Under the pieces are notes generated by a model. It did no database searches, was not told where the DNA came from, and was given only the letters and a program-made list of their open reading frames with translations. A stretch of DNA of 47,051 nucleotides from a virus: the IMG/VR virus record IMGVR_UViG_3300036851_000739, positions 1-47,051 of that record, one strand, 5' to 3'. Positions 34,779 to 47,051 of this stretch are shown here, piece by piece (the stretch's first letter is position 1; each line of letters begins with the position of its first letter). A program made the position numbers and the translations under genes.

Positions 34779-35093
34779 TCACCGGGCCTTCGGGTCGGTC
34801 AGGCGGTCATGGATCCCGCAGCGCGTCGCCCCGTTGCTCGGGTCGTAGCCGCCGCCCTCGGAGATCGGGACGAGATGGCAGGCGCGCAGGTCCGTCGTGG
34901 CAGGGCAGCGCGTGCCGCTCGCGTCGATCCAGGTGCACCGATGCCCGTCGCGCTCCAGCACCGCCTCGCGGAACCGGCGCTGCGCCGCGTGATCACGGTT
35001 CCGCGACCAGCTCACGTTCTTCGGGCGGCGATGCCGCGGGCAGCGCGTCTGACCCGAGACCCGGCCACAGACGTTGCAGGAGTAGCGCGGCAG
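34779..35093 (-). CDS. HNH endonuclease, probable CTG start
   Basis: From GTG at 35015 the frame gives a 78-residue HNH domain with Cys53/Cys63, His73 (ACHLVP), Asn87, Cys92 and His95 (CGIHDRL), numbered from the upstream start. The same frame is open further up and encodes a zinc knuckle, YSCNVCGRVSGQTRCPRHR (Cys6, Cys9, Cys18, His21), which such phage HNH proteins normally have at the N-terminus. The only start that includes it is CTG at 35093-35091, with GGAGG 5 nt upstream. I therefore annotate a CTG-started protein of 104 residues. Phage HNH nucleases next to terminase assist cos cleavage and packaging. Confidence 0.75.
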   Translation of the reverse strand: MPRYSCNVCGRVSGQTRCPRHRRPKNVSWSRNRDHAAQRRFREAVLERDGHRCTWIDASGTRCPATTDLRACHLVPISEGGGYDPSNGATRCGIHDRLTDPKAR

Positions 35094-35270: not shown

Positions 35271-35561
35271 TCACCGCCGCGGCGCGCTGGCACTGTCCCG
35301 CCTGGAGCCAGCTCGCCGTGCGCCGCGGCGATCGCCCTCGTACACGGCACTGAGCGCAGCGACATGCTTCGGCAGGTCGTGACGGCAGCTCAGGCGGATC
35401 GTGCGTCCGTCGGGTAGCTGGCCGATCACCACCAGGTACGCGGGCCGGGCGAACTCGGAGACGCTATCCGCCCGGGCACGCCGGATGGCGATCTCGTCGA
35501 TGCCGAGCCGCTCGCAGCTTGCAAGAGCTCCCGGCGAAAGGGTGACATCGGTGGCGTTCAT
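35271..35561 (-). CDS. Small protein with duplicated SPGALASCERLGIDEIA segment
   Basis: A 96-residue protein starting ATG (MNATDVTLSPGALASCERLG). Residues 6-31 are nearly identical to the start of the protein at 36282-36548, so the two are paralogues. The rest (PAYLVVIGQLPDGRTIRLSCRHDL) looks like a small beta domain with a basic tail. It is separated from the upstream gene by about 100 bp that include a run of eight Cs. No family known. Confidence 0.5.
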   Translation of the reverse strand: MNATDVTLSPGALASCERLGIDEIAIRRARADSVSEFARPAYLVVIGQLPDGRTIRLSCRHDLPKHVAALSAVYEGDRRGARRAGSRRDSASAPRR

Positions 35562-36281: not shown

Positions 36282-36548
36282 TTATCGATCTCGGCGAGCG
36301 AGTGTTGGGATCTCTCCGGACCGATGGGGCGGCATGCCCGCCCTCCGGATGGCCGCGGGGCTCAGACGGATCCGCTTGCCGCAACTGTTGCGACGGTCAG
36401 GCGCTGTGACGGCGCTGCGGGATCGCAGGCAGTGTCGGGTGGCGGCGACGGGATCTGCTCGCAGACGCCTCACCGCGATCTCGTCGATGCCGAGCCGCTC
36501 GCAGCTCGCGAGCGCGCCGGGCGAGAGTGTGACGGCGCTGGTGCTCAG
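36282..36548 (-). CDS. Diverged paralogue with probable CTG start
   Basis: The frame gives LSTSAVTLSPGALASCERLG then IDEIAVRRLRADP, which aligns without gaps from the first residue with the ATG-started protein at 35271-35561. The codon aligned with that ATG is CTG (36548-36546), and it overlaps the recombinase stop as CTGA. After residue 31 similarity fades and the sequence becomes Arg-rich, with only an IRLS piece recognisable, so the gene may be decaying. No strong Shine-Dalgarno precedes the CTG. Confidence 0.45.
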   Translation of the reverse strand: MSTSAVTLSPGALASCERLGIDEIAVRRLRADPVAATRHCLRSRSAVTAPDRRNSCGKRIRLSPAAIRRAGMPPHRSGEIPTLARRDR

Positions 36549-37132
36549 CGTGTCCGCGCCCTAACCCGCTCCTGCAGGTCCGCGTCGACGACCTCGAGGT
36601 AGATCGTCGTTGTACGCACGTCGGCATGACGCATGAGGGTCTGGACCTCCCGGATCGAGAAGCGCTCGCGCAGCAGCTCAGTCGCAAAGGTGTGGCGCAG
36701 CATGTGAGGGTTCACGTGGCGCTCGAGCCCGGCGCGGCGGGCGTAACGGTCGACCATCTCCCAGACGTAGTGGCGGGAGACGCGGGTGCCAGGCAGCGTC
36801 GTGAAGAGCTGCGGTCTGCCGGCGGCAAACTGGCGCCGCACCGTCTTCCAGCGCCTCAGCAGTTGCTCGGTCTCGGGCGCGACGTAGGCAAAGCCCTCGT
36901 GCCCACCCTTAGCCACCTCTGGCCGCAGGTGGATCTGGCCGTCCTGCGCGCGCCAGTCCCGCAGGTTGAGCCCGCAGACCTCGGACACGCGCAGGCCCGA
37001 GCGGTACATCAGCTCGAGCATGCAGCGATTGCGCAGACCCGTCGGCGCGGCCAGATTGGCGCGCGCGAGCAGCGCCTCTGCCTCGTCGCGCGAGAGCGTC
37101 TTCGGGAGCTTGCGCTTCGCCATAGGCATCAC
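36545..37132 (-). CDS. Short tyrosine recombinase (XerC/D-like catalytic core)
   Basis: A 195-residue protein consisting only of the catalytic domain. All active residues are visible: Arg48 (GLRVSEV), Lys75 (AKGGHE), His143 and Arg146 (HMLRHTFA), His169 (MRHAD) and the nucleophile Tyr178 (TIYLEV). The usual N-terminal core-binding domain is missing. It is distinct from the integrase beside attP and lies among head-proximal accessory genes. It may resolve multimers or act on the inverted repeat 40-100 bp upstream of its start. The exact start (GTG 37132, or ATGs 3-9 nt later) is unclear. Confidence 0.8.
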   Translation of the reverse strand: MMPMAKRKLPKTLSRDEAEALLARANLAAPTGLRNRCMLELMYRSGLRVSEVCGLNLRDWRAQDGQIHLRPEVAKGGHEGFAYVAPETEQLLRRWKTVRRQFAAGRPQLFTTLPGTRVSRHYVWEMVDRYARRAGLERHVNPHMLRHTFATELLRERFSIREVQTLMRHADVRTTTIYLEVVDADLQERVRARTR

Positions 37133-44295: not shown

Positions 44296-44492
44296 GCCGC
44301 CAGATCCTCGCGCAGGAACTCGCAGAGGCCATCATCAGCCGGCTGACGTAGCCGCTGCTCTCCCGCGTCCACTGCGCGTCCACCCGCCGCGCAACGCGCG
44401 CCCATGCGCGCATACGCGCGCCTGCCCGTGCTGCCGGCAGAAGCAGGCAAAACGTCGGCGCGCATCGGCGTGCGTCGGCGCGCGTTGCACGC
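44296..44492. other. Non-coding attP arm with short repeats
   Basis: This interval carries no convincing gene; a possible 37-codon frame ending at 44292 (...CEFLREDLAA) couples to the winged-helix start. It contains cgtcggcgcgc twice, at 44453-44463 and 44473-44483, 20 bp apart (about two helical turns), and an inverted gcctgc/gcaggc pair around ctgccggcag near 44420-44448. These may be integrase arm-type or excisionase sites flanking the attP core. Confidence 0.4.
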
Positions 44493-44544
44493 AGCTCCCG
44501 CTCTCGTAAAGCGGGGGTCGTGGGTTCGAATCCCACCGTCGGCT
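44493..44544 (+). other. attP core: 3' half of tRNA-Thr(CGT)
   Basis: The sequence folds as an anticodon arm (CCGCT / AGCGG around CTCGTAA, anticodon CGT), a 5-nt variable loop, a T-arm (GTGGG TTCGAAT CCCAC) and the 3' acceptor strand CGTCGGC. The 5' acceptor strand and D-arm are missing: upstream DNA does not pair with CGTCGGC. It is therefore the tRNA identity segment of a phage attachment site, 20 bp from the integrase stop. The phage probably integrates into the host tRNA-Thr(CGT) gene and restores its 3' end. Confidence 0.85.
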
Positions 44545-44563
44545 TGGCTCTGTACAGCGGTCG

Positions 44564-45673
44564 TCATCCCCCACTCCCGGACGGAGAGGGCACCGCCGCG
44601 TCCCTGGCGCGTCCAGCGCGCGCACGGGCCCGTCGCACCGCCTCCTCGGCCGAGATGCGCTCGGCCGGGTCGAACTCGGCGAAGACGTGGGCGTAGGTCG
44701 AAAGGCAGGTCTGGGGCGAGTGGCCGGCCCGGCGGGCCACCTCCACGATCGAGAGTCCCTCGTGGATCAGGAGCGAGACGTAGGAGTGGCGCAGGTCATA
44801 GGGCCGGCGCGAGCTCGCGCCGGCGGCGTGGGCCGCGGGCGCATAGCTGCGCTTGCGCCAGTTGCGGTAATCGTGCTCGCGCCAAGGCGAGCCGTCCGGG
44901 CGCGAAAAGAGAAGCGTCTCGGGCGGCGGCCGGCCGCAGGCGAGGCGCCACTCGGCGAGATCGCCCTGCAGCTGGGCGAGCAGCGGCACGGTCCGCTCGC
45001 GGCGCGTCTTCGGGGCATAGACGAGCAGGGTGCGCTCGCGGACGTCCTCCCAGCGCAGCCGCAGCGCCTCGCCGAGAGCGCCAGGGCGCAGCCCGCCGTA
45101 GGCATGCAGCGAGATCAGGGTGGCGTCTCGAAGTCCTAGCAGCGCTCGGATCGCTTCGACCATCTCGGGCGGAAGCGGGCGCACCTCGCGTCGGGTTGCT
45201 TGGGAAGGCTTCTGCACGGCGGGCACCGGATTGTGTGGGAGCTCGCCGCGCACGACGGCGACACGTAGCACGCCCTGCAGCAACGTGAGCGCCTTCAGGA
45301 TCGTCGGCTCGCCGACGCCGGCGTCGTAGAGGTCGGCCCGGAAGTTCTCCACCAGCCTGGGTGTGAGCTCCCGCAAGCGGTACCCACCGAGGCGGTCAAG
45401 GATGTGGCTGTCCCAGAGCTGGGCGTAGCGCCGGCGTGTTGAGGGCTCGAGGTTCGGCCGGGCGTGCACCCGCCACCACTCCTTCACGAATTCCTGAAGC
45501 ATCTGCTGGCCGGCATCGATCTCCGCGAGCGTCCCGAGCCGCTTGCGTCGGCGGGTCTCGTCCTCGAGCAGCTCGGCGTCGCGCTTGCGCTTGAAGGAGC
45601 GCGAGTGGCGCACGCCCGCAGCGCGCCAGCGGACCTCCCACATGCCGGTGTCCGGACGTCTGCGAACGCTCAC
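44564..45673 (-). CDS. int: Integrase, tyrosine recombinase
   Basis: A 369-residue protein: residues 1-48 an arm-binding-like beta domain, 55-150 a core-binding domain (EFVKEWWRVHARPNLEPSTRRRY), 165-345 the catalytic domain. Catalytic residues are Arg196 (GLRPGAL), Lys222, Arg295 in YDLRHSYVS (Tyr replaces the first His, a known variant), His318 (AGHSP) and Tyr327 (TYAHV). It starts with GTG overlapping the excisionase stop and ends 20 bp from the tRNA-Thr-derived attP core. It should carry out integration and, with the excisionase, excision. Confidence 0.9.
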   Translation of the reverse strand: MSVRRRPDTGMWEVRWRAAGVRHSRSFKRKRDAELLEDETRRRKRLGTLAEIDAGQQMLQEFVKEWWRVHARPNLEPSTRRRYAQLWDSHILDRLGGYRLRELTPRLVENFRADLYDAGVGEPTILKALTLLQGVLRVAVVRGELPHNPVPAVQKPSQATRREVRPLPPEMVEAIRALLGLRDATLISLHAYGGLRPGALGEALRLRWEDVRERTLLVYAPKTRRERTVPLLAQLQGDLAEWRLACGRPPPETLLFSRPDGSPWREHDYRNWRKRSYAPAAHAAGASSRRPYDLRHSYVSLLIHEGLSIVEVARRAGHSPQTCLSTYAHVFAEFDPAERISAEEAVRRARARAGRARDAAVPSPSGSGG

Positions 45674-45945
45674 GCGGCTCCCTCTTCGCTCGCCATCAGC
45701 GCGCGCAGGCTACCCCGCTTGGCGGGCCGGCCCGAAGTCCTCCGCCCCCTCGCCTGCGGCGGCGACTTTGGCTCGACGAGATTCGCGGCGATCCAGCGCT
45801 CGAAATCATCCTCGCGGATGCGCAGACGGGAGCCATCGCAGACGCGCGAGGCGCGCAGCTCGCCGCGGTGGATGGCGCGGTAGACCGCGTCGGTCGAGAG
45901 ACCGCTGCGCTCAGCGACCTGGCGGGGCGAGAGGAGCTTCATCAT
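45670..45945 (-). CDS. xis: Excisionase / MerR-like HTH protein
   Basis: A 91-residue protein with an HTH_17/excisionase-type domain at residues 4-53: LSPRQVAERSGLSTDAVYRAIHRGELRASR, then RLRIREDDFERWI. The remainder is basic and Pro-rich. It directly precedes and overlaps the integrase gene, the usual place of a directionality factor. Binding near attP would promote excision and may also repress integrase. Alternative: a simple regulator. Confidence 0.75.
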   Translation of the reverse strand: MMKLLSPRQVAERSGLSTDAVYRAIHRGELRASRVCDGSRLRIREDDFERWIAANLVEPKSPPQARGRRTSGRPAKRGSLRALMASEEGAA

Positions 45946-46301
45946 CGGAACAGCCTCGGCTGGCGCTCGTTCGCCGAGCGCAGACGCGCGAAGGCAGCCT
46001 GCGCCTGACGGCGGGCTGACTCGCGCTCACGAGAGAGGGGAGCGCTACGCTCGCGCCGCTGCGCCCTTGAGTTCGGGCAGCTTGTGAAGTGCGAGACGTA
46101 GAGCGAGAAGCCCTCCTCACGCGCTGCTCGAGCGGCCGTGGCGTCGAGCAGGCGGCCGATGCCGCGCTCGATCAGGATGTTGCCGCGGAGCTCTGAGGGG
46201 CGGGCGTCCAGCGGCATGAAGCCGTCGGAGTCCATGCGCACGAAGCGGATCGGCTCGCCGCAGGAGCGGCAGGGACGGACGGGCTTGCGCCGCTGACTCA
46301 G
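45942..46301 (-). CDS. Zinc-binding phage protein, probable CTG start
   Basis: From the GTG at 46241 the frame lacks its N-terminal domain. Extending upstream in frame gives LSQRRKPVRPCRSCGEPIRF, with Cys11 and Cys14, which pair with His71 and Cys75 (SHFTSCPNS) as in a family of small phage zinc proteins (CRSCG.PI...MPLD...SHF..CP) that I recognise. The only start before it is CTG (46301-46299), overlapping the DUF6745 stop as CTGA, with GGAGG 7 nt upstream. The CTG-started protein has 119 residues. It lies between DUF6745 and the excisionase. Confidence 0.7.
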   Translation of the reverse strand: MSQRRKPVRPCRSCGEPIRFVRMDSDGFMPLDARPSELRGNILIERGIGRLLDATAARAAREEGFSLYVSHFTSCPNSRAQRRERSAPLSRERESARRQAQAAFARLRSANERQPRLFR

Positions 46302-47051
46302 CTCTCCGCCTCCAGGGCATATTCGTGGCGCTTGAGGCCGAAGGTCCAGGCGACCGCGCCGCGGGCCGTCTTGTAGCGCGGCGGGACGCGAAGGAAGTAA
46401 GTCTTGCGGGAGCCGCCGGGCTCAGGAGTCGAGTTGACGACCTCGACCATCTGCAGCGGCTCGTCGTCGTCGAACTCGAGGCGCCAGAGCTTGCCGTAGT
46501 CGTCCTGCTGGACGAGCTCGGCGCCGGCGTCACGCAGATAGCGGTCGGCACCGACACGCTCGATCATCACGCGGCGGACCTCTACGTTGGTCTCGGTCGA
46601 GATCTCCTCGGGCGTCAGCAGCTTCGGTGACTCGATCACCTTCTGCGGCACCTGGACGCCGCGCCAGAACCAGTAGCGCGCGGCCCCGGGCCAGGCGACC
46701 GCCGGGCCTTCCTCGCAGTGGAGGCGGTCGTCCTCGACGCGCATGGACGGCCGCGGCACCGCGAGCACCTCGCCGCGCCCGAGCACCCAGAAGAGCCACA
46801 ACCCGGCCTCATAAGCGTCGATGAACGGCAGCCAGATCCCGATGGCCTTGTCGACCTCCGGGAGATCACGTACGCCCGCCGCCGACTCCGCCGCCGACCT
46901 CGCCGCCGACCACGCCGCCGACCTCGCCGCCGACCTCGCCGCCGACCACGCCGCCGACTCCGCCGACCTCGCCGCCGACCACGCCGCCGACCTCGCCGCC
47001 GACTCCGCCGACCTCGCCGCCGACCACGCCGCCGCCGACCACGCCGCCGCC
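46298..47051 (-). CDS. DUF6745 protein, repeat tract and C-terminal domain (cut by window end)
   Basis: The frame is open from the window end. Its first about 60 residues are tetrapeptide-like repeats (AAWS, AARS, with AES variants). It continues VRDLPEVDKAIGIWLPFID, then AYEAGLWLFWVLG, EDDRLHCEEGPAVAWPG, EVRRVMIERVGADRYLRD, MVEVVNSTPEPGG, and RVPPRYKTARGAVAWTFGL, which are DUF6745 landmarks. The N-terminus is at 1-186, so the gene crosses the circular join. Function unknown; usually found in bacterial chromosomes, so its presence in a phage is notable. Its stop overlaps the CTG start of the next gene. Confidence 0.75.
   Translation of the reverse strand, partial: AAAWSAAAWSAARSAESAARSAAWSAARSAESAAWSAARSAARSAAWSAARSAAESAAGVRDLPEVDKAIGIWLPFIDAYEAGLWLFWVLGRGEVLAVPRPSMRVEDDRLHCEEGPAVAWPGAARYWFWRGVQVPQKVIESPKLLTPEEISTETNVEVRRVMIERVGADRYLRDAGAELVQQDDYGKLWRLEFDDDEPLQMVEVVNSTPEPGGSRKTYFLRVPPRYKTARGAVAWTFGLKRHEYALEAES
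46876..47051. repeat. 12-bp-period tandem repeats coding Ala-rich tract
   Basis: Units of about 12 bp (gccgccgaccac, gccgccgacctc) with occasional 9-bp units run to the last base. They encode AAWS/AARS/AES repeats. A repeat this regular easily breaks or collapses in assembly, which explains why the contig ends here. Confidence 0.85.

Follow-up and report, generated by a model that had tools for sequence, protein, structure and literature searches.

The junction between the DUF6745 gene and the zinc protein gene

Where does translation of a small phage protein begin, if its reading frame has no ordinary start codon ahead of a pair of cysteines that its whole family keeps? The question is raised by a gene on the minus strand (45942..46301) of IMG/VR virus record IMGVR_UViG_3300036851_000739, of which positions 1 to 47,051, hereafter the window, were analyzed. 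The gene lies directly downstream of the one for a DUF6745 protein (46298..47051, minus strand; Pfam PF20530, E 5e-50), whose 3' end reads CTGGAGGCGGAGAGCTGA on the minus strand. In this sequence the stop codon TGA occupies positions 46300-46298 and a CTG codon positions 46301-46299 (46299..46301 on the minus strand); the two form the four-nucleotide stop-start overlap CTGA (46301-46298), in which TG is common to both. From CTG 46301 the frame encodes a protein of 119 residues, LSQRRKPVRPCRSCGEPIRF..., and ends at 45942.

The zinc protein frame is open from 46421, the preceding in-frame stop codon being located at 46424-46422. Between this stop and GTG 46241 there is no ATG, GTG or TTG in the frame, hence none before the CRSC motif. 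The ordinary start codons are found further in, i.e., GTG 46241 (46239..46241, codon 21), ATG 46235 and ATG 46217, and the sole other in-frame CTG (46349) is placed deep within the DUF6745 gene and has no Shine-Dalgarno (SD) sequence. CTG 46301, on the other hand, is preceded at a distance of 7 nt by a GGAGG sequence (46309..46313, minus strand) that is located inside the DUF6745 gene, and the calculated duplex with the anti-SD amounts to -9.3 kcal/mol, versus -2.8 for GTG 46241, +0.3 for ATG 46235 and -3.0 for ATG 46217. An SD duplex as strong as this one was obtained at 3.3% of random positions, which, together with the location of the CTG at the usual start place of the family (see below), speaks against a coincidence. 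The folding of the start region of the zinc gene was not unusual (z 0.95).

Since the residues CRSCGEPIRF are residues 11-20 of the protein counted from the CTG, a start at GTG 46241 would remove them. Initiation at CTG 46301, probably by ribosomes that reinitiate once they have terminated at the upstream stop codon, is well supported because there is no other start before CRSC, because of the positions at which the homologues start, because the ligands are invariant, and because an SD is present only at the CTG. Judged from the sequence, the CTG is very probably the start of the zinc protein; our estimate for the complete reading, in which translation of the protein begins at CTG 46301 with the initiator fMet-tRNA through reinitiation at the DUF6745 stop, is a probability of roughly 0.8. 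We infer use of the codon in vivo from the open frame, the lack of other starts, the conservation of the ligands and the SD.

The zinc protein and its family

The zinc protein belongs to the family phrog_5984 (E 6e-15), and the match comprises residues 7-86 of the protein and positions 6-89 of the 90 of the profile, i.e., the whole length of the family including its N-terminal part. In an alignment of 68 diverse members the only invariant columns were those of C11, C14, H71 and C75. This C-x2-C plus H-x3-C pattern, from which zinc binding by the protein is predicted, is present in the window provided that residue 11 lies downstream of the translation start; beginning at GTG 46241 (residue 21) would cost the protein two of the four invariant ligands, C11 and C14. 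An AlphaFold model built from the 68-member alignment had a mean pLDDT of 91, and of 96 over residues 11-20, and its strand 17-23 begins ahead of residue 21. When this model was used in a structure search, it matched a viral protein of this kind, 90 residues long, and Foldseek gave no confident match in the PDB.

Members of phrog_5984 were found in 87 records of Gordonia and Rhodococcus phages. These proteins show the same arrangement, CxxC ... HFxxC, and their genes are often placed at ATGA or GTGA junctions; nevertheless, they start with ATG or GTG and not with CTG. The neighborhood is also different, given that in the Gordonia and Rhodococcus phages the gene is found in a lysin B/RecE-like exonuclease region, whereas in the window its neighbors are the genes for the DUF6745 protein, an excisionase and an integrase. 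The viral collection yielded no close relative of this phage.

Start codons among the members of the family

To compare the starts, 141 non-redundant members of phrog_5984, the window included, were collected from phage records, viral contigs and genomes. They were gathered by protein similarity (tblastn and HMM searches with consensus baits), and start codons played no part in their selection. For each of them an ATG, GTG or TTG was sought within 30 codons before the first Cys of the CxxC motif. No such codon was present in the window, in a Gemmatimonadetes MAG contig (L049) and in three other members; inspection by eye of these three revealed that two of them (L093 and L142) have an ATG beside the true motif, and that in the other (L066) the motif belongs to a domain forming part of a longer protein. 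Therefore, apart from this domain, an ordinary start is absent only in the window and in L049.

In 71 of the 140 relatives the start is an ATGA or GTGA that overlaps the stop of an open frame located upstream and no shorter than 50 codons, and the Gordonia phages Ailee and Galadriel differ at this junction, one having ATGA and the other GTGA. These two observations indicate that CTG 46301 is located at the usual start place of the family, as had been proposed in the first-pass annotation, which considered the CTGA to be the same device as the ATGA and GTGA overlaps and suggested a search for related phages with ATG or GTG at this codon. That annotation had also placed the start at the CTG that overlaps the stop of DUF6745 and has GGAGG 7 nt ahead of it, so that the first Cys pair and CRSCGEPIRF were recovered; the position is borne out by the sequence, and the recovery of the motif agrees with the 141 homologues, the conservation of the ligands and the strength of the SD. 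Homologues that start at the GTG and do not have the CRSC motif were sought, and none was found in the family set; likewise, no member without CxxC was found among the relatives gathered. Other members of the family also carry a CTGA, but in all of them an ATG or GTG is found nearby; for this reason the window and L049 have no counterpart in the set.

L049 carries a distant relative in which CTG is the sole start, since a TAG closes the frame four codons upstream. This CTG is preceded by the SD AGGAGGT, with an anti-SD duplex of -10.9 kcal/mol. The upstream open frame that ends with the CTGA does not resemble a gene, and an overlap with the stop codon of a real gene is doubtful; hence L049 supports the use of CTG but not the coupling. 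In the same contig, a stretch of approx. 170 nt without a clear gene (2301-2471) is located between the gene for a small membrane protein and the zinc gene; this stretch is absent in the relative L085, where these two genes overlap. From the whole set, the use of CTG in the family can be estimated, independently of annotation, as approx. 2 of 140 members (about 1.4%, a value that rests on small numbers).

Possible mechanism and other explanations

The arrangement suggests that ribosomes finishing DUF6745 at TGA 46300 would find themselves next to GGAGG and to the overlapping CTG, and could restart there with fMet, i.e., by termination-reinitiation. The CTG would have replaced the ATG or GTG that the relatives carry at this junction, and being a weak start codon it probably lowers the output of the zinc protein relative to that of DUF6745. 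Both the reinitiation route and the low output are predictions derived from the layout of the junction.

A different reading is that base 46301 was misassembled or mutated recently, in which case the population would have ATG or GTG at this position, or this copy of the gene would be dead. The junction is known from a single copy, the relatives have ATG or GTG at the corresponding place, and one substitution would suffice; we nevertheless regard it as improbable, given that the rest of the zinc gene is intact with its ligands strongly conserved, and that the starts at 35093 (described below) and in L049, with equally strong SDs, would require independent errors.

A start at GTG 46241, or at ATG 46235, would produce a short form without the first Cys pair, and this is the form to be expected from automatic annotation. 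Since CTG is usually not among the starts that gene callers consider, proteins of this kind are annotated without their N-terminus, in the present case without half of the zinc site. Although GTG and ATG are normal starts and both occur in this frame, this possibility is very unlikely: the GTG lacks an SD, no relative was found without CxxC, half of the invariant ligands would be missing, and the SD-CTG upstream would be left unexplained. The zinc region could also be a C-terminal extension of DUF6745, produced by a -1 frameshift at the CTGA without a new start. The zinc frame is indeed -1 relative to that of DUF6745 and open across its stop, and for ppe2 of Mycobacterium tuberculosis the suppression of a stop codon with frameshifting at overlapping ORFs has been reported (PMC11260477). 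However, by inspection no slippery heptamer precedes the stop (GCC CTG GAG GCG GAG AGC TGA), the relatives are independent genes that have starts of their own, and DUF6745 possesses its full C-terminus according to the profile, all of which makes such an extension extremely unlikely. Initiation at CTG 46301 is thus retained as the preferred explanation.

CTG as a start codon elsewhere in the window

The first-pass annotation had noted that ATGA and GTGA overlaps are used throughout this genome, and this was corroborated, since a gene in the corresponding frame follows at 11 of the 15 ATGA stops and at 8 of the 13 GTGA stops. It had also pointed to two further CTG cases, at 35093 and 36548, and suggested that CTG initiation might be regular at coupled junctions; of these cases the one at 35093 is good, albeit without a CTGA overlap, whereas that at 36548 is weak and probably a decayed copy. 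The proposed regularity is weakly supported: the case at 35093 speaks for it, while the lack of SD enrichment and the ATG or GTG available at the other CTGA junctions speak against it.

The gene at 35093 (34779..35093, minus strand) encodes an HNH endonuclease with an N-terminal zinc ribbon, and CTG 35093-35091 is the only possible start before this ribbon. The CTG is located 1 nt after the previous stop codon (TGAG-CTG), with GGAGG 5 nt upstream and a duplex of -9.5 kcal/mol. A related phage (L004), whose terminase is 47% identical, also encodes an HNH protein with this ribbon, started by an ATG at the aligned residue, and from the start to the first Cys of the ribbon there are five residues in both, be it from the ATG or from the CTG. 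Other HNH relatives, from Gordonia phages, begin close to the HNH core and do not have the ribbon; for this reason a shorter product from GTG 35015 is also compatible with the homology. On these sequence features 35093 appears to be a good, if less strict, example of a CTG start.

The candidate at 36548 is a partial copy (36282..36548, minus strand) of the gene at 35561 (35271..35561, minus strand), and its CTG lies over the stop codon of an integrase gene (CTGA). This small gene (VTLSPGALASCERLGIDEIA...) matches no known family; it is thus present twice, at 35271-35561 and 36282-36548, and one of the copies is apparently truncated after approx. 35 codons. In a codon-by-codon alignment CTG 36548 is opposite ATG 35561, and codons 6-25 show eight synonymous differences and no non-synonymous one. 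Nevertheless, the two copies cease to be similar at codon 35, and the partial one has a negative coding score and an SD duplex of just -5.1, from which it follows that this copy may be decayed; it was not counted as a CTG start.

As a sign by itself CTGA was discarded. It is found at 17 stops among the 65 minus-strand genes considered, a frequency that is largely explained by CTGATG, in which an ATG directly follows the CTG; most junctions that lead into an in-frame gene are CTGATG or have another ATG or GTG, and, leaving aside the doubtful 36548, a usable ATG or GTG is present at all the other CTGA junctions with an in-frame gene. The enrichment of upstream SDs in the window was 0.89x for CTG, 1.5x for ATG and 1.2x for GTG, and a general use of CTG for initiation by this phage was rejected given its lack of enrichment. 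The codon is better seen as an occasional start, with two putative good cases in the window (46301 and 35093).

Comparison with known CTG starts

Previous reports indicate that CTG is a weak bacterial initiator, since at SD-led positions it is not enriched in mycobacteria (0.03%; PMC4633059) and 70S complexes are less stable on CUG (PMC11497404); these results count against CTG 46301. In the dnaA mRNA, an SD-led CUG gives a toeprint, yet it is not used in vivo (PMC8443254). On the other hand, the part of PMC11983097 drawn on here describes a CTG start for the Rep protein of RepFIB (P307/F/pO157) plasmids, backed by N-terminal analysis and by the loss of function caused by changing CTG to CTC. 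According to the same part of that report, this CTG has a good SD and the gene is usually misannotated at a downstream GTG, 14 codons away as compared with 20 in the zinc gene; it differs in being a replication gene of enterobacterial plasmids, and in that an overlap with an upstream stop is not mentioned there.

CTG starts are therefore already known elsewhere, and the variant described here is a CTG in place of ATG or GTG at a stop-start overlap. Termination-reinitiation is an established process where stop and start codons overlap (PMC6728339), and the ATGA and GTGA overlaps have the same geometry and the same SD inside the upstream gene as the CTGA junction, in contrast with which the start is here CTG and the coupling is predicted. 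The value of about 1.4% for the family stands against 0.024% of genes annotated with CTG in model bacteria (PMC11983097), and against switches of start codons to CUG of 3e-5 to 4e-4 (PMC5622118). Reinitiation may relax the choice of the start codon, and the CTG junction represents a natural test of this idea. In its broader form, the terminating ribosome would be less strict at overlaps, CTG would work well there, and CTGA or a stop-adjacent CTG would constitute a third class of coupled starts, systematically overlooked in high-GC phages and maintained since a single change turns GTGA or ATGA into CTGA; this generalization is tentative and rather unlikely.

Neighboring genes and other features

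The PF20530 profile is matched up to position 202 of 206, so the C-terminus of DUF6745 is complete. At the other side, its frame passes through an alanine-rich GGCGGCGTGGTC-type repeat (AAAWSAAAWSAARSAES...) up to the end of the window, which is therefore cut inside this gene; TTG 46801, given as the start in the ORF listing, was rejected since the frame continues to the window end. Downstream of the zinc gene, an HTH_17 excisionase-like protein (45670..45945, minus strand) starts at an ATGATG over the zinc gene's stop, followed by the integrase gene. A second, short tyrosine recombinase (36545-37132, 195 residues, Phage_integrase E 2e-37) is located far from this integrase. The window contains no special phage-encoded tRNA, only a tRNA-Thr (cgt) on the plus strand (44467-44545), which directly adjoins the end of the integrase gene (44564). 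An ORF with a GGIRTHDP-type sequence that overlaps the tRNA-Thr is probably spurious, and the position of this tRNA beside the integrase gene makes it a likely attachment site.
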